Assembly: GCF_000722635.1 (NCBI RefSeq)
Contig: NZ_JOKH01000003.1
Location: 601,962-665,961, forward strand
Direction of reading: 5' to 3'
Source: Endozoicomonas numazuensis
GTDB taxonomy: Bacteria; Pseudomonadota; Gammaproteobacteria; Pseudomonadales; Endozoicomonadaceae
Length of the DNA: 64,000 bases
A program made the translations under genes and the position numbers. Positions 3,359 through 32,225 of the stretch are shown here, in pieces (positions within the stretch are counted from its first letter, which is position 1; each line of letters opens with the position of its first letter). The notes beneath the pieces are model-generated. The model saw nothing but the letters and a program-made list of their open reading frames with translations. It was not told the DNA's origin and ran no database searches.

Positions 3359-4183
3359 ATGAGTGAAAGAGAGATCATCGCGAGCATAGTCAGCTCAGGC
3401 TTTATTCTGGTGTTCGTCATTGAGCTTTTGGCGGGCAAATTCAAAGAATCTCCCCGCCCCTGGCGAGACGGCGGCTTTATCATGGCCGGGCTTTCTGCCC
3501 ACGCGGTCATGTCGACCCCCTTGATAGGTTTTATTGCGGGTTGGCTGGTTGTCCTGATGTTTCCAAACAGTTCCGGCGCACTGGCAGACACCCCTTTCTG
3601 GTTAGCATTGGGCTGCATCTTTTTCACTCAGGAGATGATGCACTACTGGTTACACCGCTGGATCCATGAAAAAGAATGGCTGTGGAAAATTCACAGAACC
3701 CATCACACCGCTGAAAAACTTAACACCGGTGTAATCTGGCGCTACAACATTTTCTGGACTCTGCTGTTGCCTCAGGTCTGGATGCTGCCTTTCATGATTT
3801 ATTTCGGGCTGGGCATTCCCTGTGTTGTTGCAGGCATGATCACCTTTTTTGGCAATATGCTCACTCACACCGCCTTCAGATGGGACCTGTGGCTGCGTAA
3901 AAAAATGCCCTGGAGTGAGCCAGCCTGGTGCGTGATAGAAAAGGTTATCACTCTGCCAGATACGCACCATGCTCACCATGCCTGGGGACCGGGATCCAAC
4001 CTGAATGGCAACTACGCCACCACCCTGTTCATTTTCGATACGGTCTTTGGCACAGCAAAAATTCCGAATCGTGAGCAGAAACGATACGGCCTGCCAAAAG
4101 CCAAGAACCTGGACTGGAAAGAAGAACTTTTCTGGCCACTGATTCGAAAGCCAGAAGCATCACTCTCAAGCAAACAGCCATGA
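3359..4183 (+). CDS. fatty acid hydroxylase / sterol desaturase family membrane protein
   Basis: This 274-residue integral membrane protein carries the eight-histidine di-iron signature of the superfamily: H95-x3-H99-x3-H103, H112-x2-H115-H116, H170, and H203-H204-x-H206-H207 (in DTHHAHHAWG). Hydrophobic segments near residues 8-24, 40-66, 78-95 and 130-168 are the likely membrane spans. Family members use O2 to hydroxylate or desaturate lipid, sterol or aldehyde substrates, and the substrate here is unknown. The ATG at 3359 follows GCGAGG. The gene starts a cluster with an aldehyde dehydrogenase, a class II aldolase and a TauD-type dioxygenase, suggesting stepwise oxidation of one lipid-like or ether compound. 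Confidence 0.85.
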   Translation: MSEREIIASIVSSGFILVFVIELLAGKFKESPRPWRDGGFIMAGLSAHAVMSTPLIGFIAGWLVVLMFPNSSGALADTPFWLALGCIFFTQEMMHYWLHRWIHEKEWLWKIHRTHHTAEKLNTGVIWRYNIFWTLLLPQVWMLPFMIYFGLGIPCVVAGMITFFGNMLTHTAFRWDLWLRKKMPWSEPAWCVIEKVITLPDTHHAHHAWGPGSNLNGNYATTLFIFDTVFGTAKIPNREQKRYGLPKAKNLDWKEELFWPLIRKPEASLSSKQP

Positions 4184-4282
4184 GCAGAAAATGCCATCAC
4201 TTCGGAGTGATGAGAATGATCACCGTCTAAACAACAGCATTTTCATTAATAGAAAACACAAAACAGAACAAAAGGCAGCAGT

Positions 4283-5782
4283 ATGAGAGGCGCATCGGTT
4301 TTAACTCTGAAGACCAACCTCCTTGACCCCGACCGAGTCAAGGAGGCCAGCGAAACTCCGGGGGGTGAAGTCAAGCGCCTGCTGGAGTTACAAAGAGCAG
4401 ACTTCATCAGAGAAGGTGAAGTCAGTGCAGAAACCCGAATTGAACGACTAAATCAGACTATCGACCTGATTCATGACAATCATGACCACATTGTTCAGGC
4501 ACTGGCGCAGGACTTTGGCAGTCGATCAGGACATCAATCCATTTTTTCTGACGTCTACTTCTGTCTGGAGTCTCTCAAACACAGCCGCAAACATGTACGA
4601 CAGTGGATGAAGGCAGAAAAGCGAAAGCTGGATCTGATCTATCGTATCACCGGCAGTAAAGCTGAAGTGCAATACCAGCCCAAAGGGGTTGTCGGCATTC
4701 TGGGTACCTGGAATTTCCCGGTCAATACCGTCATCTGCCCGCTTGCAGGCGTTTTGGCTGCCGGCAACCGGGCCATTCTCAAGTTCTCAGAAGTTTCTCC
4801 TGCCACTTCAGCATTGATGGAATCTCTGGTGAAAACCCATTTCGATGAGAAAGTAGTCGCTGCGGTTTCCGGAGGCCCTGAACTGGGTTCCGAAATGACA
4901 TCAGCACCGTTTAATCACCTGGTCTTCACCGGCTCCACCAATATTGGCAAAAAGATCATGAGGTCCGCTTCTGACCATCTCACCCCGGTCACACTGGAGC
5001 TCGGAGGTAAGTCCCCTGTTGTGGTGGACAGGGAATACGATGTCCAGGAAGCTGCCGAAAAAATAATGATTGGCAAAGCTCTGAATGCAGGCCAGGTCTG
5101 TCTGTCTCCTGACTATGTATTTGTACACGAAGACAAACTGGAGTCGTTCATTGAGGCTGCGACCCAGTGGACCCGAAAAATGTTCCCCACCATGAAGAAC
5201 AACAAGGATTACACCGCTGTTGTGAACGAGCGTCATTACTACCGGGTCAAAGGTTGTATTGATGAAGCCAAAGAACGGGGAACCGATGTTCGCACCATAA
5301 ACCCGGCCAAAGAAGCTCTGGAGCCCAAAGATTCTGTCTATAAGCTTCCAATGACCTTTATTGTCAATCCTGATGATGATTTGGGCATTATGCGCGAAGA
5401 GATTTTTGGTCCGGTGCTGGCGATCAAAAGCTATCGACAGATCAGTGAGTGTCTGGATTTTATTAATGCCCGCCCTCACCCGCTTGGCCTTTATATATTC
5501 AGTGATCAGCCTTCATTCCAGAACAAGGTCATCAAACAGACCCAGTCCGGTGGTGTCACCCTGAACGATGTCATCATGCATGGCGGTTGCGAAAACCTGC
5601 CGTTTGGTGGTGTTGGAGACTCTGGCGTAGGTCATTATCACGGAGTCTATGGCTTCAAAGAGTTCAGCCATGCGAGAGCCATCTTTAAACAGGGAAAAAT
5701 CAACATTCAGAAACTCAGTGGTCTGATTCCTCCTTACACCAAAAAATGTGACCGTGCGCTGAAAGCCATGGTGAAAAAATAA
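4283..5782 (+). CDS. aldehyde dehydrogenase family protein
   Basis: This 499-residue NAD(P)-dependent aldehyde dehydrogenase has the catalytic asparagine at N144 (GTWNFPVN), the general base at E239 (TLELGGKSP) and the nucleophile at C273 (GQVCLSPDY). FTGSTNIG near 225-232 is the cofactor-binding turn. The GTWNFP and PFGGVGDSGVGHYHG stretches resemble the coniferyl-aldehyde / fatty-aldehyde dehydrogenase branch (CalB-like). The N-terminal ~45 residues before the ALDH fold are a little longer than usual. AAGG lies 8 bases before the ATG. It lies 100 bases after the hydroxylase gene and 10 bases before the aldolase gene, so it probably oxidises an aldehyde produced within the same pathway. Confidence 0.9.
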   Translation: MRGASVLTLKTNLLDPDRVKEASETPGGEVKRLLELQRADFIREGEVSAETRIERLNQTIDLIHDNHDHIVQALAQDFGSRSGHQSIFSDVYFCLESLKHSRKHVRQWMKAEKRKLDLIYRITGSKAEVQYQPKGVVGILGTWNFPVNTVICPLAGVLAAGNRAILKFSEVSPATSALMESLVKTHFDEKVVAAVSGGPELGSEMTSAPFNHLVFTGSTNIGKKIMRSASDHLTPVTLELGGKSPVVVDREYDVQEAAEKIMIGKALNAGQVCLSPDYVFVHEDKLESFIEAATQWTRKMFPTMKNNKDYTAVVNERHYYRVKGCIDEAKERGTDVRTINPAKEALEPKDSVYKLPMTFIVNPDDDLGIMREEIFGPVLAIKSYRQISECLDFINARPHPLGLYIFSDQPSFQNKVIKQTQSGGVTLNDVIMHGGCENLPFGGVGDSGVGHYHGVYGFKEFSHARAIFKQGKINIQKLSGLIPPYTKKCDRALKAMVKK

Positions 5783-7609: not shown

Positions 7610-8884
7610 CATCGCTTCTCTGACAACATGATAATGTTGATTGACATCCAGCTTGGTCATTAGCCAGTTCACCGTTGTTCCCTGTACCAGTAAAGAGAAA
7701 AGAATAACGGCTAAAGTCATATCAATGATCAACTTCTTCTCGGGAATACTGTCAGGAATCGACAGCATCAGTGCCACAGGCACAACACCTCTCAACCCAC
7801 CCCAGAACATAATCGCCTTGGTCTTGTTATCCACAGGACGACCCACCGGCAATCGATTTGAGATAGGCAGAAGCAAATAGACAACAACCAGACGACCAAT
7901 AAGCACAGCTGCAATGGCAATCAGAAGATAGGGATAGTAATTCTGCAGATGCTCCAGGTTTCTGAACAGCAGATCTTCCTTCATACCCAGCAGCAGAAAA
8001 ATCAGACTGTTCGCAAGAAAGGCCATAAACTCCCAATAAGGGGTAATAAAGCTGCGTACCTGATCCGACAATACTTTACCTGACTCAGAGCGCGTAACAA
8101 TACCCGCAGCAATGGTGGACATGACACCAGACACGCCAAGCACATGATCAGCAATGATAAAACTGCCATAAGCCAGTATTGTGGTATGGGCTATCTGGAC
8201 AAAAGGCTCTGATTTACCCAACTTAAGCAACCAGTGCGTGGCGATCCCCATAATTGTACCGACCAGAATCCCACCAAAAAACACTTCGATGAAAGACCAG
8301 ACTCCACCCAGCACGACTCCGGTTCCCACACCCCCGCCAGCTTGAATCACGGCTAATACAATTCCGAAAATCACGATAGCGGTGGCATCATTAAACAGGC
8401 TCTCAGCATCCATTAGCATGGACATTCGTGCCGGAGCCCCAACTTCCTTGAATAAGGCAATCACAGCTACCGGGTCTGTAGCAGAAATCAGAGCACCAAA
8501 TAACATAGCGCCAGCCAGACTGAGAGGTGTCAGGGCATTCATAATCACCCCGATGACCAACATGGACAGCACAACCCCAAATACGGCCAGATTCATGACC
8601 GAACCCATCTCACGAAACAAATGGGGCGGTTTGATATTAATAGCTGCATCAAAAATAAGGATGGGTAACAGCACATACATGATCAGATCATGAGACAGAT
8701 CCACCTTGAGAACCGGCTCCAAAGCATCGGTGTATTGCGCCAGAATCCCCAAAGCCATGCCAATCACCACCAGGCCAATGGTGTAGGGAAACCTTAGCTT
8801 TTTAAGCAAAATGGATGAACTGGTAGCAAGAAGCAGCAGACCAGCCAGTATCAGGACCGGTGCAGCTAGGCCGGTTTCGTGCAT
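7592..8884 (-). CDS. cation:proton antiporter (NhaP-type, CPA1 family)
   Basis: This is a 430-residue polytopic inner-membrane protein with about 12 hydrophobic helices. It contains the CPA1 signature region FGALISATDPVAVIALFKEVGAP and the downstream DAESLFNDATAIVIF, holding the Asp-rich ion-binding helix. These point to Na+(or K+)/H+ exchange and pH or salt homeostasis. An in-frame ATG lies 20 codons upstream at 8944, but I prefer 8884 because AGAGG stands seven bases before it. The extra upstream residues are not membrane-like. It is a single gene, convergent with the dioxygenase cluster. Confidence 0.9.
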   Translation of the reverse strand: MHETGLAAPVLILAGLLLLATSSSILLKKLRFPYTIGLVVIGMALGILAQYTDALEPVLKVDLSHDLIMYVLLPILIFDAAINIKPPHLFREMGSVMNLAVFGVVLSMLVIGVIMNALTPLSLAGAMLFGALISATDPVAVIALFKEVGAPARMSMLMDAESLFNDATAIVIFGIVLAVIQAGGGVGTGVVLGGVWSFIEVFFGGILVGTIMGIATHWLLKLGKSEPFVQIAHTTILAYGSFIIADHVLGVSGVMSTIAAGIVTRSESGKVLSDQVRSFITPYWEFMAFLANSLIFLLLGMKEDLLFRNLEHLQNYYPYLLIAIAAVLIGRLVVVYLLLPISNRLPVGRPVDNKTKAIMFWGGLRGVVPVALMLSIPDSIPEKKLIIDMTLAVILFSLLVQGTTVNWLMTKLDVNQHYHVVREAMKKLGG

Positions 8885-10650: not shown

Positions 10651-11577
10651 TTGCAGCTTATAACAAAGCATTTACATTCAAAACAGAACCCTATTGCCAG
10701 ACTCGGTAGCCATACAGTCTGGCTTAACGCATTACTGCTGTTATCAGCAGCGTTGCTGTGTGGCTGTTCTTCCGGGCCTTCGCAGGACAGCAGTGAAGTT
10801 GCCCTTGAAAAACTGGATGTCAATGAATTAAAAATGACCATGCTCGCTGACATATCCAGTACGGTAGTCAGCGATGGTGAACTGGCCAACAATATCAAGA
10901 CCGATATTGCCCGCTTGGCCATCACCCCGCTGAGGCGTTCCCCCGAAGTTCAGATTGCCGGTAGTGATGAGATCACTCGCCCTGTCGCCGTCAGTTTTCA
11001 AAAAGCTTTCGAACAGAGCCTGATGAATATGATGGACGAAGCCCAGCTCAGCCAAGCTGCAGCTATTATTCATACCCGCAAACCGACCACCCCACTGTGT
11101 AACCCTGCTGGCAAAGTGCTCAGACAAACGATGTCTGTTTCAATGCAGGGCAACCCACACCGAACCAAAACCATTGAAGACAGAACCGTTACACTTCGCA
11201 GAATGGCTCAGAATGGCCCCCCTATGGATCTTTACGTTGCTTATGTAAAAGGAGGCCTGGATAAACGTTCGCCAGAAGAACAATTGATCTATAAGCACGA
11301 GGTCAATTCGTCTGCCAACACCAGCCTCCATAACGAAGAGATGGCCTGTTCAGAAATGCCAGACGCAATAGTCGGAGCATCCTACGTGCTGACTACAAAA
11401 CTGGGGCATACGCTCTACTTTGCCAACAACGGCACTCAAGCCGCTGATGCAACAGGCAGCACTCTCTGGCGATACTGGTTCGGTAGCCTGAAAGATGCCC
11501 CTGTCGACAAGCGTTACAAAGAGGTCTTCAAATATTTGAAAGAATGCGGCCTGGATATCCCCGACATCCCTCTCTGA
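10651..11577 (+). CDS. putative lipoprotein of unknown function
   Basis: I do not recognise this 308-residue protein. A hydrophobic stretch near residues 24-38 ends in LLCGCSSG, a lipobox with the predicted lipidated Cys near residue 38, so it is probably an outer- or inner-membrane lipoprotein. The rest is soluble-looking, with paired motifs IIHTRKPTTPLCN, DLYVAYVKGGLDKRS and YWFGSLKD. These motifs are shared with the broken paralogue at 12483-13178. The apparent start is TTG at 10651 with AAGG eight bases upstream. No in-frame ATG precedes the signal sequence. Its stop abuts the stop of the convergent EthD-like gene. Confidence 0.65.
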   Translation: MQLITKHLHSKQNPIARLGSHTVWLNALLLLSAALLCGCSSGPSQDSSEVALEKLDVNELKMTMLADISSTVVSDGELANNIKTDIARLAITPLRRSPEVQIAGSDEITRPVAVSFQKAFEQSLMNMMDEAQLSQAAAIIHTRKPTTPLCNPAGKVLRQTMSVSMQGNPHRTKTIEDRTVTLRRMAQNGPPMDLYVAYVKGGLDKRSPEEQLIYKHEVNSSANTSLHNEEMACSEMPDAIVGASYVLTTKLGHTLYFANNGTQAADATGSTLWRYWFGSLKDAPVDKRYKEVFKYLKECGLDIPDIPL

Positions 11578-12482: not shown

Positions 12483-13178
12483 ATGGAAAACGCTCTGCTA
12501 TCCCATATTATTGTCGGGCTGGCTCTGAAGAATAATACAGGAGGGTATCTTCATGAATGACGTCAGAGCATGACAGATTTCAGTCCTGAACTGATCATCA
12601 GCAAGCCTGCTATTCGTGAATTACTCTCAAAGGATGCTGATCGTGAACAAAGGCAAAATTAAGAGCGCAACAGCCATCATACACACTGACCGCCCAACGA
12701 CTCCTCTGTGCAACCTTAACGGCAAACTGGCTAAAGATACCTTACCTGAGTCGGTGAGAAGTGACCCCCAGCGTCTTAAAACCTTAAAAGACCGCACTGA
12801 AACCATGCGTTTACTGGCTCGAGAAAAACAAGTCGATCTTTATATCGCCTATTCCCACGGCGGACTGCTAAAGCGATCTGAAAAAGAACAGGGTATTTTC
12901 AAAGATGAAGTCAAAAGCCGAAAAAATATAGCTCTGCATAATGCTGAGCTCTCTTGCCCAACCATTCCGAAAAAACTCTCTGACGCCACCTACATCCTCA
13001 AACTGACAAACGGTAAAAATTTTCCCTCACCGGCAGTCAAATGCAGGATGCCGACAACACTATGGACTGGGGGTACTGGTTTGAAACCTCTTTAAGATCA
13101 CTTGAGCAACACTGCACACTTCATCTGAAACCTTTCTTGCTGCGAGGTCAATGCACTGGATACCAAGCCTTAAAATAA
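12483..13178 (+). pseudogene. frameshifted paralogue of the lipoprotein at 10651
   Basis: The central frame (from about 12616) encodes ATAIIHTDRPTTPLCN, DLYIAYSHGGLLKRSEKEQ and TYILKLTNGKNF, which track the intact paralogue residue by residue. The N-terminal part is in another frame (MTDFSPELIISKPAIRELL from 12570, with an in-frame TGA further up). The C-terminal part (YWFETSLRSLEQH, ending at 13178) is again in a different frame, entered at an AAAAATTTT run near 13016-13024. With at least two frame changes and one stop it is best called a pseudogene. Sequencing error or a programmed shift at A-AAT-TTT is possible but unproven. Confidence 0.75.
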
Positions 13179-24906: not shown

Positions 24907-26253
24907 ATGAATAATTTTTTGAGTCCGGCCAGGCACCAGGAGTCCATTGCCAGTCAGGATGTCGACACTACCTATAAACATCTGAGACGTCAGGTTTTTC
25001 TTGGGATTTTCATTGGTTACGCCGGTTATTATCTGGTAAGGAAAAACTTTTCTCTGGCCATCCCTCATCTGGTTGAAGAAGGTTTCACCAAGTCCGAACT
25101 CGGCTTTGCCCTTTCTGGTGTTTCCATCGCCTACGGCATCAGCAAGTTCCTGATGGGAAACCTTTCTGATCGCAGTGACGCCCGAAAATTCATCACCTTC
25201 GGCCTGATATTCAGCGCTTTAACCATGATCCTCATGGGCACTGTTCCTGCTGCCACAGCCACCATTCCAGCCATGTTTATTCTACTGTTTATTAATGGCT
25301 GGTTTCAGGGCATGGGCTGGCCTTCCAGTGGCCGGGTCATTGTCCACTGGTTCTCAGTCAGTGAACGGGGGACCTGGGCGGCCACCTGGAACCTGGCCCA
25401 TAATGTCGGTGGCGGTCTGGTGGGGCCTCTCGCCATTATGGGCATGGCACTCTTTGCAGACTGGCACAGCGTTTTCTACTTTGCGGGTTTAATGGCTATT
25501 GTCACCGCCCTTGTCAGCTGGCTGATGGTTAGGGATACCCCTCAATCCTGTGGACTCCCCCCAATAGAGGAATATACAGGAGACTACCCCCACGCTTTTG
25601 CTTACAACGATTCCCATGAAAGAGAATTTTCTGCCAGCGAGATCTTTTTCAAGTACGTACTTAATAATCGTCTGCTCTGGTACATCGCCATTGCCAACGC
25701 ATTCGTTTACCTGGTTCGATACGGTGTTTTAGACTGGGCACCGGCCTATTTGGATGAAGCAAAGGGCTTCTCCATGACCGATAGCAGCTGGGCCTATTTT
25801 CTTTATGAGTTTGCCGGCATTCCCGGAACCCTGCTTTGCGGGTATTTGAGCGATCGCTTTTTTAGAGGTCGAAGAGCCCCCGCCAGTCTTGTTTATCTGG
25901 TTGCCGTTCTGGCCGCAGTGGTGGTTTATTGGAAGAACCCTCCCGGAAACCCTCTTGTGGACAATCTCGCCCTGATTACCATTGGCTTTCTGATCTATGG
26001 CCCGGTTATGTTGATTGGCGTTCATGCTCTGGATCTGGTACCCAAAAAAGCTGCCGGAACAGCCGCTGGCCTGACAGGACTGTTTGGTTATCTTGGCGGC
26101 GCGTTATTCGCCAACATAGCAATGGGCTTTATTGTTGATCGATACGGTTGGGACGGTGGCTTTCATGTCCTGATAGCCGCCTGCATAGGTGCCATGGTCA
26201 TGCTGTCTATTTCATGGATTGAAGAAGTAAAAACCCATCGCAGCATTACATGA
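24907..26253 (+). CDS. glpT: glycerol-3-phosphate transporter (MFS organophosphate:Pi antiporter)
   Basis: This 448-residue, 12-helix major facilitator of the organophosphate:phosphate antiporter family imports glycerol-3-phosphate in exchange for phosphate. Features include the substrate-binding Arg region YYLVRKNFSLAIPHL, the loop motif GNLSDRSDARKF, the family signature WFQGMGWPSSGRVIVHWFS and the central loop CGLPPIEEY characteristic of GlpT. UhpT-type hexose-phosphate carriers are the nearest alternative. No glp catabolic gene is adjacent, so the GlpT call rests on protein motifs. Confidence 0.88.
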   Translation: MNNFLSPARHQESIASQDVDTTYKHLRRQVFLGIFIGYAGYYLVRKNFSLAIPHLVEEGFTKSELGFALSGVSIAYGISKFLMGNLSDRSDARKFITFGLIFSALTMILMGTVPAATATIPAMFILLFINGWFQGMGWPSSGRVIVHWFSVSERGTWAATWNLAHNVGGGLVGPLAIMGMALFADWHSVFYFAGLMAIVTALVSWLMVRDTPQSCGLPPIEEYTGDYPHAFAYNDSHEREFSASEIFFKYVLNNRLLWYIAIANAFVYLVRYGVLDWAPAYLDEAKGFSMTDSSWAYFLYEFAGIPGTLLCGYLSDRFFRGRRAPASLVYLVAVLAAVVVYWKNPPGNPLVDNLALITIGFLIYGPVMLIGVHALDLVPKKAAGTAAGLTGLFGYLGGALFANIAMGFIVDRYGWDGGFHVLIAACIGAMVMLSISWIEEVKTHRSIT

Positions 26254-26261
26254 AAAACAAA

Positions 26262-26290
26262 AAAAAAGACCTGACCACAACGGTCAGGTC
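26262..26290 (-). terminator. terminator of the cupin-HEAT/peptide operon
   Basis: GACCTGACC and GGTCAGGTC form a perfect 9-bp stem with a five-base loop. On the minus strand it is followed by nine T residues, so it is a strong rho-independent terminator for transcripts coming from 29295 downward. On the plus strand the stem follows glpT but without a T run. Confidence 0.88.
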
Positions 26291-26322
26291 CTAAACTCAA
26301 ATCGTCATAACATCAGTCCTGA

Positions 26323-26409
26323 CTATTCTTTGGTATTCAGGCTATGGAGGGGGCCTTGCCAGCAAATCCAATCTTGCGAGACTCATTGACTACAGCCCCC
26401 AAGCATCAT
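26323..26409 (-). pseudogene. decayed second copy of the 48-residue peptide
   Basis: This minus-strand stretch encodes AVVNESRKIGFAGKAP, which parallels AVETSRKVDFAGKAP of the intact peptide just upstream. An ATG-ATG pair at 26409-26404 follows a GAGGTGG ribosome-binding-like sequence, but a GGGGG run shifts it out of frame with the homologous part. A CCCCCTCC stretch shifts the following HSLNTKE into a third frame. Codon third positions differ from the intact copy while the core residues are kept, so the two copies diverged under coding selection before this one decayed. Confidence 0.6.
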
Positions 26410-26426
26410 CTTCACTACCACCTCAT

Positions 26427-26573
26427 TTATAAGGTATATCTGGACTGCTCTTTGGTATTAATGCTGTGTGGCGCTTTGCCTGCAAAGTCTACTTTCCTTG
26501 AAGTTTCCACAGCCTTCAATACAGCCTGCATCAGCGGGCTCTGCTTTTGAGTCATTGCGTGATCAGTTCTCAT
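26427..26573 (-). CDS. 48-residue peptide, possible product or substrate of the upstream cupin-HEAT genes
   Basis: I do not recognise this peptide. It has a hydrophobic/amphipathic N-terminal half (MQAVLKAVE) and a hydrophilic C-terminal half, RKVDFAGKAPHSINTKEQ. A strong Shine-Dalgarno, GAGGAGGT, lies five bases before the ATG at 26573. The start overlaps the last 11 bases of the preceding gene, so the two are translationally coupled. The duplicated FAGKAP core in the next copy supports it as coding. Its position at the end of an operon of unusual putative metal-binding proteins suggests a modified or signalling peptide, which is inference. There are no Cys residues and no leader-type double-glycine site. 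Confidence 0.7.
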   Translation of the reverse strand: MRTDHAMTQKQSPLMQAVLKAVETSRKVDFAGKAPHSINTKEQSRYTL

Positions 26574-27507
26574 ATTGCACCTCCTCAACTATGAAGTTAC
26601 CCTGTTCATTGCCTGTTGGCCAGGCAAGACAAAGACCAAAATACTGAGTCATTCCTTCATGAAACTGTTTAACGGAAGTCCTTACATATAAATGTGGGTC
26701 TCTGGCTCCCTGTTCAGCCAACTGATCAAGCTCTTCTGGATGCGCCTGCATCAGTGCATGCCAGGCTGAAGCCCGGACACGCATGAAAGGGTGCCGTCTA
26801 GCAATTTGGGTGAGAACATCCCGACAGTTCTCATCACCAAAGTTGGCAATGGCATGAAGCATCATATCCTTGGCAAAAATAGAAACAGCATGACCATTGA
26901 CCCGATGAGTTTTCGAATCAAATGAACACTCTGCCACCGCCATCTGTCGTTCTCTTTGAACCACATTAATCGATACTGAAGTGGCTTCCGGTGGATATTG
27001 CAGGTGAATATCGGTGCCTGCGGTAAACTGCATAACCTTACCCTGAGTCAACAGGGTGGATTCTACAAAGCGAAACTCTGCCTTCTCACCCATGACACCA
27101 CTGCAACGTTCATAATCAAATTCGTAAATATCGGTTTTGTACCCCGGACCAGCATAACCGCAGGTAATAAAATTAATATCGTGATTGTGGAGATAGTTGT
27201 ACTGACCTTTTTCGATGGTATTAAAGTTGTCAGGCCAGACCACCACCCTGAACACATAATCTTTGCCAAAACGGGGAATAAATGTGGTCGGCAGTAAACT
27301 GTGTGAGGCCTCCAGAGTGGCAAAGCTCTTCAGATACTGGCAAAGGTAATCTGACAGAAACTGCCTGTTGTTGGAAAGCTGATGCAGGAAGGGAGACAAT
27401 GGCTCCAGATCCTCACCTCGCTTAATCGGAGTTGACTCACAGACTTCATAAAAGTCATCCAGAGAGATAGCTTTGTCGTCGGAGTCATATTCGAGAGTTC
27501 TAACCAT
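26563..27507 (-). CDS. cupin-like protein with C-terminal HEAT-like repeats (paralogue C)
   Basis: This 314-residue protein has three parts. An N-terminal helical region covers residues 1-90. A beta-rich cupin-like domain covers about 90-190, with a possible metal motif in YLHNHDINFITCGYAG and a second half ending in AGTDIHLQYPPEATSVSINV. A C-terminal HEAT-like helical pair (DVLTQIARRHPFMRVRASAWHALM) follows, near 228-270. It is clearly paralogous to the next gene upstream, including the shared start MVRT. It may be a non-heme iron oxygenase or a cupin scaffold, and the family is not one I can name. It follows paralogue B by 18 bases, and its stop overlaps the peptide gene. Confidence 0.75.
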   Translation of the reverse strand: MVRTLEYDSDDKAISLDDFYEVCESTPIKRGEDLEPLSPFLHQLSNNRQFLSDYLCQYLKSFATLEASHSLLPTTFIPRFGKDYVFRVVVWPDNFNTIEKGQYNYLHNHDINFITCGYAGPGYKTDIYEFDYERCSGVMGEKAEFRFVESTLLTQGKVMQFTAGTDIHLQYPPEATSVSINVVQRERQMAVAECSFDSKTHRVNGHAVSIFAKDMMLHAIANFGDENCRDVLTQIARRHPFMRVRASAWHALMQAHPEELDQLAEQGARDPHLYVRTSVKQFHEGMTQYFGLCLAWPTGNEQGNFIVEEVQYEN

Positions 27508-27525
27508 GACGCCACCTCACTTTGC

Positions 27526-28416
27526 TTACTGACTGGAAGCAAGAGCCAACTCCTGCTTCTCAATATTGCGCTTAAGGGTATCGGTATAGGCTCTTACATG
27601 GGAATGCTCATCAGCAACTGCTTTAGAGAACAGGTAATCCCTGTCTGCAGGATTAAACTCAATCAGAGCATGCCAGGCCGCTGCCCGGACGCGCATGAAA
27701 GGATGCCTTTGAGCAATATCAATCAACACGTCCTTGCTGTTTTCATTACCTAGTGTGCAAACTGCATTAAACACGGACTCCTGTACCGGAATCTTGATGG
27801 AGTGTCCCATGACCGTCCGCTTATCCATATCAAATGAGCACTCGACAATGTTTTTACGAGCTTCCCGCTTGATTACATTTAAGGAGACAGACAGCTCTTC
27901 CGGTGGATACTGTATATGCATATCGGTACCCGCTTTGTACTGCATAATTTTGCCAGGAGGCAGCATGGTGCTTTCCTGAAACTCAAGGTCCACCTCCTCA
28001 CCCACCAGCCCAGTGCAATGCTCATAGTCAAAACTGTAGATATCCGTGTGATAGCCTGAACCGGTATAGCCACAGGTAATAAAACCCACATCGTGATTAT
28101 GGGGATAGTGATAGAGTAACTGGTTACCCCGCTCGGCAGGATCAATGACAGGCCAGATCACAATGCGGAAAATGTAGGATTCACCAATACGAGGCATGAA
28201 GACGGGTGGCAAAAAACTGTGTTCAGGCTCACTCAGATCTTTCAGATAATCGCAGAAGTACTGTTCAAGAAACTGACTGTTGTTTGCCAGCTGTTTCAAT
28301 GCCGGGACAAGCCCTTCCAGATCTTCCTCAGACTGCAAACCAGCCCGATCACACAAGCTGTAAAACTCATCCAGCGGTATGGCCAGCTCAGTCCTGCATT
28401 CAACCGTTCTTACCAT
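27526..28416 (-). CDS. cupin-like protein with C-terminal HEAT-like repeats (paralogue B)
   Basis: The 296-residue protein has the same architecture as the gene at 26563. HYPHNHDVGFITCGYTG supplies a putative HxH metal site near residue 110, AGTDMHIQYPPEELSVSLNV completes the cupin-like half-barrel, and DVLIDIAQRHPFMRVRAAAWHALI forms the HEAT-like tail. AGGAGGT precedes the ATG at a good distance. The conservation of HNHD and DxHxQYPP between the two divergent paralogues (roughly half identical by eye) argues that these residues are functional. Substrate and reaction are unknown. Confidence 0.75.
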   Translation of the reverse strand: MVRTVECRTELAIPLDEFYSLCDRAGLQSEEDLEGLVPALKQLANNSQFLEQYFCDYLKDLSEPEHSFLPPVFMPRIGESYIFRIVIWPVIDPAERGNQLLYHYPHNHDVGFITCGYTGSGYHTDIYSFDYEHCTGLVGEEVDLEFQESTMLPPGKIMQYKAGTDMHIQYPPEELSVSLNVIKREARKNIVECSFDMDKRTVMGHSIKIPVQESVFNAVCTLGNENSKDVLIDIAQRHPFMRVRAAAWHALIEFNPADRDYLFSKAVADEHSHVRAYTDTLKRNIEKQELALASSQ

Positions 28417-28449
28417 GGTACACCTCCTGGCAAAGGCACCTGACCAACA

Positions 28450-29295
28450 TCAGGCCGTTACAGAAAGAGCCGTCATCGTTTTATCAGCCAATTGACGTAT
28501 ATAAGGATCACTGTCGTAAATCAGGGTATGCTCCAACAAAGATCGACTTCTCTCCTCACTCTGTTTGCAAAGGCTGGAAAAAGCCTCCCAGCGTACAAAA
28601 GGTGCATAACGATCACTGGAGGCAACATTCTCAAGACATTCAATACTTTTCTCAGAGCCTGACAACTCCCCGATCAGTGCTGCAGCCAGTTGACTTCTGG
28701 AGTCGGACACTCGGGTTGCAATCAACCGAGTTGGCTGTAAAGTCTCGCGATTATAGGTCCATGTCAGAACCCCTCTTGCTGCAGAGTGGGCTGTTAACAG
28801 ACATGCCTGCTGTTTAATGCCATCCAACAATGGAACCGAATCATAGGCTTTGAAAACGTGAGCCTGACAAGAACCCAGAATCAAAGTAGGTCCGTTCCTG
28901 GCAGACACAGGCATTTCATAGATATCAACCGTGTCGACTTTGGTTTCAAGCACCGGGATATCAATGGCTTGCTCACCCAGATTAATCAGCATCAAATCAA
29001 ATTCATTGGCACAGACTTCTTTACTTTCTGAAGGCTCACCCAAACCGTTACAGAAGACCAGCGAGAGATTGAAATCTCCTTTGCTGTACAGGTAATTCTG
29101 ATCAAGAAAAGGCTTTTTCTCAGCAGACGTTTCTTTGGAAATATCCTCAGCCACACATTGGAGCAACTGAGGAACGGTTGACGGGTCAATCAGCTCAGAC
29201 AACCCGGCCAGTTGGGAAAACTGATAACTGTCCTGAACCATAATCTGCTCAGCCCGGCTAATCAGTTGACCCAGAAAGCGGTTATTTGAATTCAC
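28450..29295 (-). CDS. divergent cupin-HEAT paralogue lacking the HNHD motif (paralogue A)
   Basis: This 281-residue protein shares the overall plan of the two following genes: a helical N-terminal region, a beta-rich middle (residues ~70-190) and a HEAT-like C terminus (YAPFVRWEAFSSL, DSDPYIRQLADKTM). The HNHD and DxH residues are absent and it has extra cysteines, so it is probably a non-catalytic partner. The start codon is GTG at 29295 with GGAGGAGG eight bases upstream. It is the first gene of the operon, 33 bases before paralogue B. The relationship to B and C is inferred from layout and weak similarity. Confidence 0.65.
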   Translation of the reverse strand: MNSNNRFLGQLISRAEQIMVQDSYQFSQLAGLSELIDPSTVPQLLQCVAEDISKETSAEKKPFLDQNYLYSKGDFNLSLVFCNGLGEPSESKEVCANEFDLMLINLGEQAIDIPVLETKVDTVDIYEMPVSARNGPTLILGSCQAHVFKAYDSVPLLDGIKQQACLLTAHSAARGVLTWTYNRETLQPTRLIATRVSDSRSQLAAALIGELSGSEKSIECLENVASSDRYAPFVRWEAFSSLCKQSEERSRSLLEHTLIYDSDPYIRQLADKTMTALSVTA

Positions 29296-31715: not shown

Positions 31716-32225
31716 ATGAAAAAACTTCTACTGACGGGCTGTACTGTTCTATTTCTTTCTCTGACTGCGAACGCTCAGCATCAGATCTCACTGGAGTATG
31801 ACGCCTATGTGCTCGACGCTAAAGACAAACTGACCGACTTTATAATCCGGCCAGCCAGCTTTGATTACGTGAAAATCGGAACACTCACTATAAATATCCA
31901 GTATCACGGCTCGATGCACACAGCCCAGCTCAGCATTGGTGGTGACGGGCTTGACACACACCATAACTTTGTCGTGTATGCAGCCATACAAAACCCGTTA
32001 CTGCATGAACAGGGCAGAATCTACTCGTTTAAGCCCCACCCATGGAAACTGATCGTACTGCCTTGGGGAACCCAGCTTCAACCAGCTTCAACCAGCTTCA
32101 ACCAGCTTCAAATAGTGCTGCTTTCCAGTCACTTTAACTCCAACAAGCCTATAAATGTAGGAAGTGCCCCCGAGCTGAATATTGATAATGATCTTCTGAA
32201 GGCAGTATTGGACGACAATGATTGA
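31716..32225 (+). CDS. secreted protein of unknown function with a 10-bp tandem repeat
   Basis: The 169-residue product has a clear signal peptide (MKKLLLTGCTVLFLSLTANA, cut after ANA) and a beta-rich mature part, so it is probably periplasmic. I do not recognise the family. Residues about 120-132 are encoded by four copies of a 10-bp unit at 32072-32111. Because 10 is not a multiple of three, the repeat is read in all three frames (QPASTSFNQLQ), and a change of one unit would frameshift the last 38 residues. It lies between rpe and gph and breaks their usual adjacency. Confidence 0.65.
   Translation: MKKLLLTGCTVLFLSLTANAQHQISLEYDAYVLDAKDKLTDFIIRPASFDYVKIGTLTINIQYHGSMHTAQLSIGGDGLDTHHNFVVYAAIQNPLLHEQGRIYSFKPHPWKLIVLPWGTQLQPASTSFNQLQIVLLSSHFNSNKPINVGSAPELNIDNDLLKAVLDDND
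32072..32111. repeat. 10-bp tandem repeat inside a coding region
   Basis: Four consecutive copies of CCAGCTTCAA lie inside the secreted-protein gene. Slippage by one or two units would change the reading frame. Confidence 0.92.

Follow-up and report, generated by a model that had tools for sequence, protein, structure and literature searches.

A short peptide gene linked to proteins with HEAT-like ends in Endozoicomonas numazuensis and other bacteria: a candidate peptide-modification system

The window, i.e., the whole stretch of DNA analyzed here, comprises 64 kb of the 6.3-Mb genome of Endozoicomonas numazuensis (G000:C3:601962-665961; below, L denotes a locus and G a genome, and f1, f64 and f232 are family numbers). 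On its minus strand it carries an operon of three protein genes, A, B and C, followed by a short peptide gene, the proposed precursor gene, and then by a terminator. Gene A (28450..29295) has a GTG start and encodes 281 aa with a HEAT-like C-terminus; B (27526..28416) encodes 296 aa with an invariant His triad and a HEAT-like C-terminus; C (26563..27507, 314 aa) is a local duplicate of B in which the same triad is kept. The peptide gene (26427..26573) has 48 codons and is preceded by the ribosome-binding site GAGGAGGT at 26579..26586, as read from the sequence, and the intrinsic terminator (26266..26292) is formed by a 12-pair stem, a 3-base loop and a T run. The order A-B-C-peptide, the ribosome-binding site and the terminator had been described in an earlier account made from the letters of the DNA (the sequence-only reading), and these observations are confirmed. 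The same holds for the start of the peptide gene inside C: its ATG occupies 26571-26573 and the stop of C 26563-26565, giving an overlap of 11 bases.

The nearest named relative of this operon is found in Endozoicomonas arenosclerae ab112 (L015), where C is 91% identical, and another genome of the window's genus (G006) carries the same operon. In the alignment with E. arenosclerae, the AGGAGGT of the ribosome-binding site is retained, and by eye a hairpin resembling the window terminator follows the peptide gene there too. The overlap of C with the peptide gene is not conserved, because C of E. arenosclerae terminates before the peptide gene, the tail of C being frame-shifted between both species; the overlap is incidental. 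Between the peptide gene and the terminator of the window lies a second, degenerate version of this gene on the minus strand (about 26305..26414), absent from the sequence-only reading. It was recognized by local alignment, scoring 86 against its own neighboring copy and 102 against that of E. arenosclerae (200 shuffles reached at most 67 and 63, respectively), and by eye it contains a frameshift and a stop. No such copy was seen in E. arenosclerae.

The comparison with E. arenosclerae also bears on coding. For the peptide gene, 16.2 synonymous and 7.8 nonsynonymous changes give a dN/dS of 0.083; the corresponding values for A, B and C are 0.101, 0.040 and 0.047 (the last over residues 1-295). 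Between the peptides of L019 and L020 the ratio is 0.036, derived from 8 changes only. Among the f232 peptides described below, pN is lower than pS in 177/177 pairs of 60-98% identity, with a median ratio of 0.42, the pairs not being independent of each other. Ahead of the chosen start, 71/79 of these peptide genes have a Shine-Dalgarno match of 4 bases or more, and 74/79 begin with ATG; these counts are not independent, since the starts were picked partly by these features. The peptide is a real gene under purifying selection, linked to A-B.

This linkage was followed in three families: f1, the window's own family Endozoicomonadaceae (placed by its relative E. arenosclerae); f64, which belongs to the same class as the window; and f232, which belongs to the same phylum and a different class. 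The sequence-only reading had staked its proposal on the peptide being present beside the homologous genes elsewhere, and in all three families it is. The B profile matches 7/38 genomes in f1, of which 6/38 were counted; the match in G017 (E 8.6e-4, model positions 158-285) is mostly HEAT and lies inside a 737-aa frame, and it was not taken as B. The peptide profile, with rows from five of the six matching genomes (G005 not among them), matches exactly the six B-positive genomes out of 38 with E ≤ 2e-20 and no other genome at E ≤ 1e-3; the weak matches in G010 (E 0.09) and G022 (E 0.06) were not counted. The peptide gene lies downstream of a B-type gene in all six intact f1 loci, i.e., the window, L018, L019, L020, L021 and L022, the last being a further locus from the genome that contains the window. 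According to profile matches, genes of the major facilitator superfamily (MFS) accompany L019, L021 and L022, and Cupin_8 genes occur in L022 and in the f64 locus L045. Also at L022, a frame for a short-chain dehydrogenase/reductase (SDR; 7863-8690, minus strand) overlaps the end of the peptide frame; an SDR gene is found beside L045 too, with similar frames in the other f64 loci.

In f64, where B is present in 5/112 genomes, a divergent peptide gene lies upstream of A in 5/5 loci. At L045 the Cupin_8 gene adjoins the peptide gene, and a similar frame is present in the other four f64 loci. B is found in 2/369 genomes of a class-wide sample and in 15/398 of a phylum-wide one, the window's own genome being counted in each. 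On an Alteromonas plasmid (L043), A-B is flanked on both sides by ABC transporter genes, which makes export likely there; MacB-type transporter genes are nearby as well. A Vibrio plasmid (NZ_CP080241.1; L044, 7016-7977) carries a shortened B (228 aa) that apparently lacks the HEAT-like end; it is followed by an annotated 59-aa open reading frame (ORF), and restriction-modification genes and a Tn3 transposase are nearby.

The largest set comes from f232, where B is present in 88/249 genomes and 44/96 genera. The 94 loci examined, some of which represent the same place twice (the fragments of G962, G966 and G977 were left out), contain a B frame in 91; 85 distinct loci were kept, L112, L133 and L135 having been dropped as B probably runs off the stretch. 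An iterated peptide profile, seeded with eight f232 peptides, matches on the B strand at 79/85 loci, directly upstream of A-B. Among the misses, L046, L049, L148 and L149 have by eye an unlike short ORF at about the same place, L066 stops at a contig end, and no peptide was recognized in L146. An A-type frame without the His residues precedes B in 82/85 loci, and 55 of these frames match a profile of six Endozoicomonadaceae A proteins. When whole f232 genomes were searched, the peptide profile matched in 82/249, namely 80/88 of those with B vs 2/161 of those without; 8 genomes have B and no peptide match, and 159 have neither. The Fisher p value of 4.6e-53 for this co-occurrence is overstated, because the genomes are related and 23 of these peptides built the profile. 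Furthermore, for 79/83 peptide matches there is a B match no more than 3 kb away; the remaining four are in G948 (40 kb off), G1009 (on another contig, with B at a contig end), and G816 and G1017 (no B match).

Some f232 genomes show irregular arrangements of these genes. At L146, the B locus of G948, no A frame was found before B, and the B match, 40 kb from the sole peptide match of the genome, has an in-frame stop. G816 and G1017 have a peptide match without a B match, and G977, from the genus of G1017, has only a remnant of B beside the peptide.

As for the surroundings, a thioesterase gene neighbors 54/85 f232 loci and a RuvX-like gene 39/85. A family scan of 90 of the 127 flanking frames at 13 loci returned thioesterase six times and PdxJ, DUF3089, signal peptidase and AI-2E transporter three times each, among the 25 of 81 families listed. 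The position of the peptide gene thus takes three forms (downstream of B, directly upstream of A, or divergent and upstream), and its linkage to A-B is kept in all three families. Exporter genes vary from locus to locus, with MFS genes beside L019, L021 and L022 and ABC genes beside L043.

The peptides themselves fall into unlike families, GFGC-bearing, Cys-free and acidic-hydrophobic, across which A and B remain recognizable. The peptides of L019-L022 carry GFGC[HN][LI][RK] near their end, and those of the window and E. arenosclerae are Cys-free; alignment of the window peptide to the GFGC peptides of related loci reveals common M, L, V, A, R and G columns. The f64 peptides carry GR[AV][LV]GFGC[IL]D near their end, and a profile comparison joins them to the Endozoicomonas peptides with a probability of 94.8, 0/100 column-shuffled decoys being as good. 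In the f232 peptide, conserved columns are present in both halves, and most members have a short hydrophobic segment. A shared origin of the f232 and gammaproteobacterial (gamma) peptides was considered and is undetectable by profile comparison; one f232-vs-Endozoicomonas comparison (score 12.9 vs a decoy maximum of 12.8, over 9 columns, probability 0.6) was not counted.

Regarding the proteins, B and C do share HNHD and DxHxQYPP, as the sequence-only reading had it: the motifs are YPHNHDVGF and TDMHIQYPP in B, and YLHNHDINF and TDIHLQYPP in C. In 101 aligned B-type proteins (81 rows from f232 and 20 others), W88, H106, H108, G119, G121, Y122, H167 and Q169 (B numbering) are invariant, R84 is kept in 100/101, and a 65-row subset gives identical invariant residues. 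Conservation of HNHD, on which the earlier proposal also depended, holds for both His (101/101), as it does for the H and Q of DxHxQ (101/101), and fails for the D, a variable position with N in 88/101 rows and D in 8/101. The residues of the His-based HxH...H metal-site pattern of the cupin superfamily are present in 101/101 rows, and no column is mostly His across 88 aligned A-type proteins. The natural reading of these columns is that B and C have a putative three-His metal site that A does not have. The suggestion that B and C are metal-dependent and A is a non-metal partner fits this pattern, with metal binding as its predicted element. A tree of 31 B-type proteins groups the window's B and C with those of E. 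arenosclerae in a single clade (support 100/100), which indicates that the B/C pair arose by local duplication.

The C-terminal 60-70 residues of A, B and C match HEAT_2 (PF13646) with E values of 4.9e-6, 0.002 and 3.1e-5 and scores of 27.2, 18.8 and 24.6 bits, respectively. The HEAT-like ends proposed earlier correspond to these matches, all of which lie below the Pfam cut-off of 27.7 bits. A of L043 exceeds this cut-off with 36.7 bits, and 12/19 members of the B family match HEAT_2 at E up to 1. Beyond HEAT, no match was obtained in Pfam, NCBIfam, PHROGs, PADLOC or PDB sequences. The cupin-like domain proposed by the sequence-only reading is so far not supported: Pfam and NCBIfam, searched with A, B and C up to an E value of 5, list no cupin family. 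With 55 core domains, Pfam at E up to 10 gave six families, no cupin among them and none fitting, and a profile of the same domains gave two weak and unrelated matches (E 0.8) among PDB sequences. A cupin assignment by profile is rejected as unproven, and "cupin-like" is a reading of the motifs only, because cupin profile matches are absent. Kinship with cysteine dioxygenase was rejected as well, since it does not rise above decoys: in a forced alignment to five such sequences the His fall in register, but the profile similarity has a probability of 1.2, and 5/60 decoys are equal or better. Profile comparisons of the B family with JmjC, SDR and MFS gave nothing. As to origin, no relative was found in the phages and viral contigs searched and none in PHROGs, and a known anti-phage defense system was not recognized by PADLOC (6 proteins, E up to 0.1).

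The relation of A to B is uneven along the chain. Full-length hhalign comparison gives a probability of 96 over 218 columns, and with 88 A rows and 101 B rows it gives 95.4, with 0/25 decoys as good. The HEAT part alone reaches 91.4. The core alone reaches 14.9, its score of 27.4 standing narrowly above all 40 decoys (maximum 25.1), and a narrower core test gives 0.4. The kinship of A and B is strong in the HEAT part and weak in the core, so that the description of A as a distant paralogue stands for its HEAT part, with the core adding little to it.

Collectively, the operon is on balance best explained as an undescribed system resembling those of ribosomally synthesized and post-translationally modified peptides (RiPPs), in which a precursor peptide would be changed by dedicated modifying proteins. 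This explanation draws on an enzyme-like B with a putative metal site, an A without one, and diverse peptides linked to them through three gene orders. It is further favored by the purifying selection on the peptide, by its co-occurrence with B, and by genes for oxidation or transport close to some of the loci (Cupin_8, MFS and ABC). The short gene beside modification genes that is looked for in a RiPP system is here a constrained short gene fixed beside A-B, the putative modification genes. The peptide families diverge while A and B stay recognizable, as is the case for precursors and their maturases. The mechanism that we infer extends to metal binding, enzyme activity, the peptide as substrate, the roles of A and the HEAT-like ends, and the nature of the change. 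B and C, each with a three-His metal site, would probably oxidize residues toward the C-terminus of the peptide, and A, without such a site, would together with the HEAT-like ends probably hold its N-terminal part. Transferred to f232, A and the HEAT-like ends may bind the N-terminal half, LPKIDL.SLPDL...G.FGS, and B may oxidize the C-terminal half, about DDR.V.IMVY.YE; in the gamma lineages the corresponding target could be the G..GFGC end. The interpretation offered by the sequence-only reading is in this respect partly supported.

Several observations weigh against such a system. In Pfam and NCBIfam, A, B, C and the peptides show no known RiPP maturase or leader-binding domain, although a new RiPP class need not contain one. 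Homology between the f232 and gamma peptides is undetectable (hhalign probability 0.1-0.6). The f232 flanks consist mostly of housekeeping genes at the 13 loci scanned, and the families listed for their 90 frames include no exporter or peptidase shared by these loci; without a shared exporter, the f232 product may stay in the cell. In G005 (L023, 10363-10500), the peptide frame is open, B is a remnant and A was not found, a state that could reflect either recent decay or a peptide acting alone. Finally, AlphaFold2 models built from 4 alignment rows reached a mean pLDDT of 43 and 38 in two runs, too poor for fold comparison.

Some of these observations would suit an unmodified peptide that serves as a small regulatory or structural subunit of an A-B(-C) complex acting on another substrate. 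Fixed linkage, retention by f232 beside housekeeping genes, lack of a common exporter, and conserved columns in both halves of the f232 peptide are all compatible with it. A subunit would be expected to stay as alike as its partners do, yet no homology could be detected between the f232 and gamma peptides while the A and B profiles reach across both groups, and a second, broken peptide copy such as that of the window would be unusual for a subunit. Taking both sides into account, this alternative is unlikely, and it is the one among the rivals that survives best.

An exported signal or antagonistic peptide, with A-B as immunity, sensing or export-coupling proteins, is a distinctly weaker candidate. 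The patchy distribution of B in the class and phylum samples (2/369 and 15/398 genomes, own genome included) would agree with it, and so would the MFS genes beside L019, L021 and L022 and the transporter genes of ABC and MacB type next to the copy on the Alteromonas plasmid. However, an immunity protein needs no invariant HxH...H accompanied by W, Y and Q, the f232 flanks scanned have no exporter in common, the window's own MFS gene (24907-26253) is convergent to the operon and lies outside it, and PADLOC found nothing at E up to 0.1. A still smaller chance attaches to a peptide from which a small cofactor is made, in the way that PqqA gives rise to pyrroloquinoline quinone (PQQ): B and C would oxidize a short stretch, which would then be excised and kept in the cell. 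Presence in 44/96 f232 genera, frequently in comparable chromosomal surroundings (a thioesterase gene at 54/85 loci, a RuvX-like gene at 39/85) and with no common exporter, points in this direction, but no peptidase is common to the loci, as judged from the part of the f232 flanks that was scanned, and no single stretch is common to all peptides. A toxin-antitoxin-like pair in which the peptide would be the toxin is very improbable: a small ORF beside stable partner genes and the short hydrophobic segment of most f232 peptides would fit, yet a toxin would hardly permit the open peptide frame of G005 with A not found and B a remnant, by eye the Endozoicomonas and f64 peptides have no hydrophobic segment, and PADLOC gave no match.

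If the RiPP-like explanation is true, a metalloenzyme family of undescribed chemistry joins those that modify ribosomal peptides. In its broader form, the proposal is that of an undescribed peptide-modifying class in at least two bacterial classes, in which a three-His metalloenzyme and a metal-free relative, both with HEAT-like ends, act on unrelated precursor families and which in some lineages is a stable chromosomal trait whose product may be a cofactor or signal and not an antibiotic; this wider statement has about an even chance of being correct. About 90 natural precursor-protein sets have been located (79 from f232, 6 from f1 and 5 from f64). Consisting of a peptide plus two or three proteins, the system is small enough for reconstruction in a laboratory strain; as it is common in f232 and lies among housekeeping genes there, it could lead to a physiological compound derived from a peptide. 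A search based on known maturases would probably miss it.

Elsewhere in the window, a secreted-looking 169-aa protein (31716-32225, plus strand) corresponds at its start to a 415-aa protein of E. arenosclerae (L018 flipped, 3921-5168), and by eye the window copy looks shortened. Two neighboring ORFs on the plus strand (12616-13095 and 10651-11577) have AIIHT.[KR]PTTPLCN..GK in common, and the second of the pair looks like a truncated paralogue (both by eye).

Among known systems, the Cupin_8/JmjC hydroxylases (PF13621) come to mind, as Cupin_8 occurs in the neighborhood of the peptide gene at L022 and L045; B and C do not match Cupin_8, and their putative site is HxH...H, while JmjC-type sites read HxD/E...H. 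Cysteine dioxygenase (CDO_I, PF05995) shares with the B family a W followed by HxH, a spacer of 50 to 60 residues, a further H and finally SxS or a similar motif; it differs in that the profile similarity of the B family is insignificant and in that most f232 peptides are without Cys (13/79 have one). No account of the A/B family was found in the covered parts of the open literature, including PMC13083261, PMC12257519 and PMC12491435, most subscription journals lying outside this scope; a genomic family survey with antiSMASH names RiPPs and, in the sections covered, neither cupin nor HEAT repeat (PMC12491435). The closest likeness in layout is that to the RiPP clusters of MNIO/DUF692 type. As far as the covered portion of its description goes, the pbs cluster combines precursor genes, a metalloenzyme, a hypothetical partner protein, a cupin-like hydroxylase and an MFS gene (PMC12257519), and what it has in common with the present operon is that precursor genes adjoin a metalloenzyme (here a putative one) and a hypothetical partner protein. 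Neither B nor C matches MNIO or any other maturase family; in the system described here, unlike in those clusters, the putative enzyme and its partner both have HEAT-like ends.

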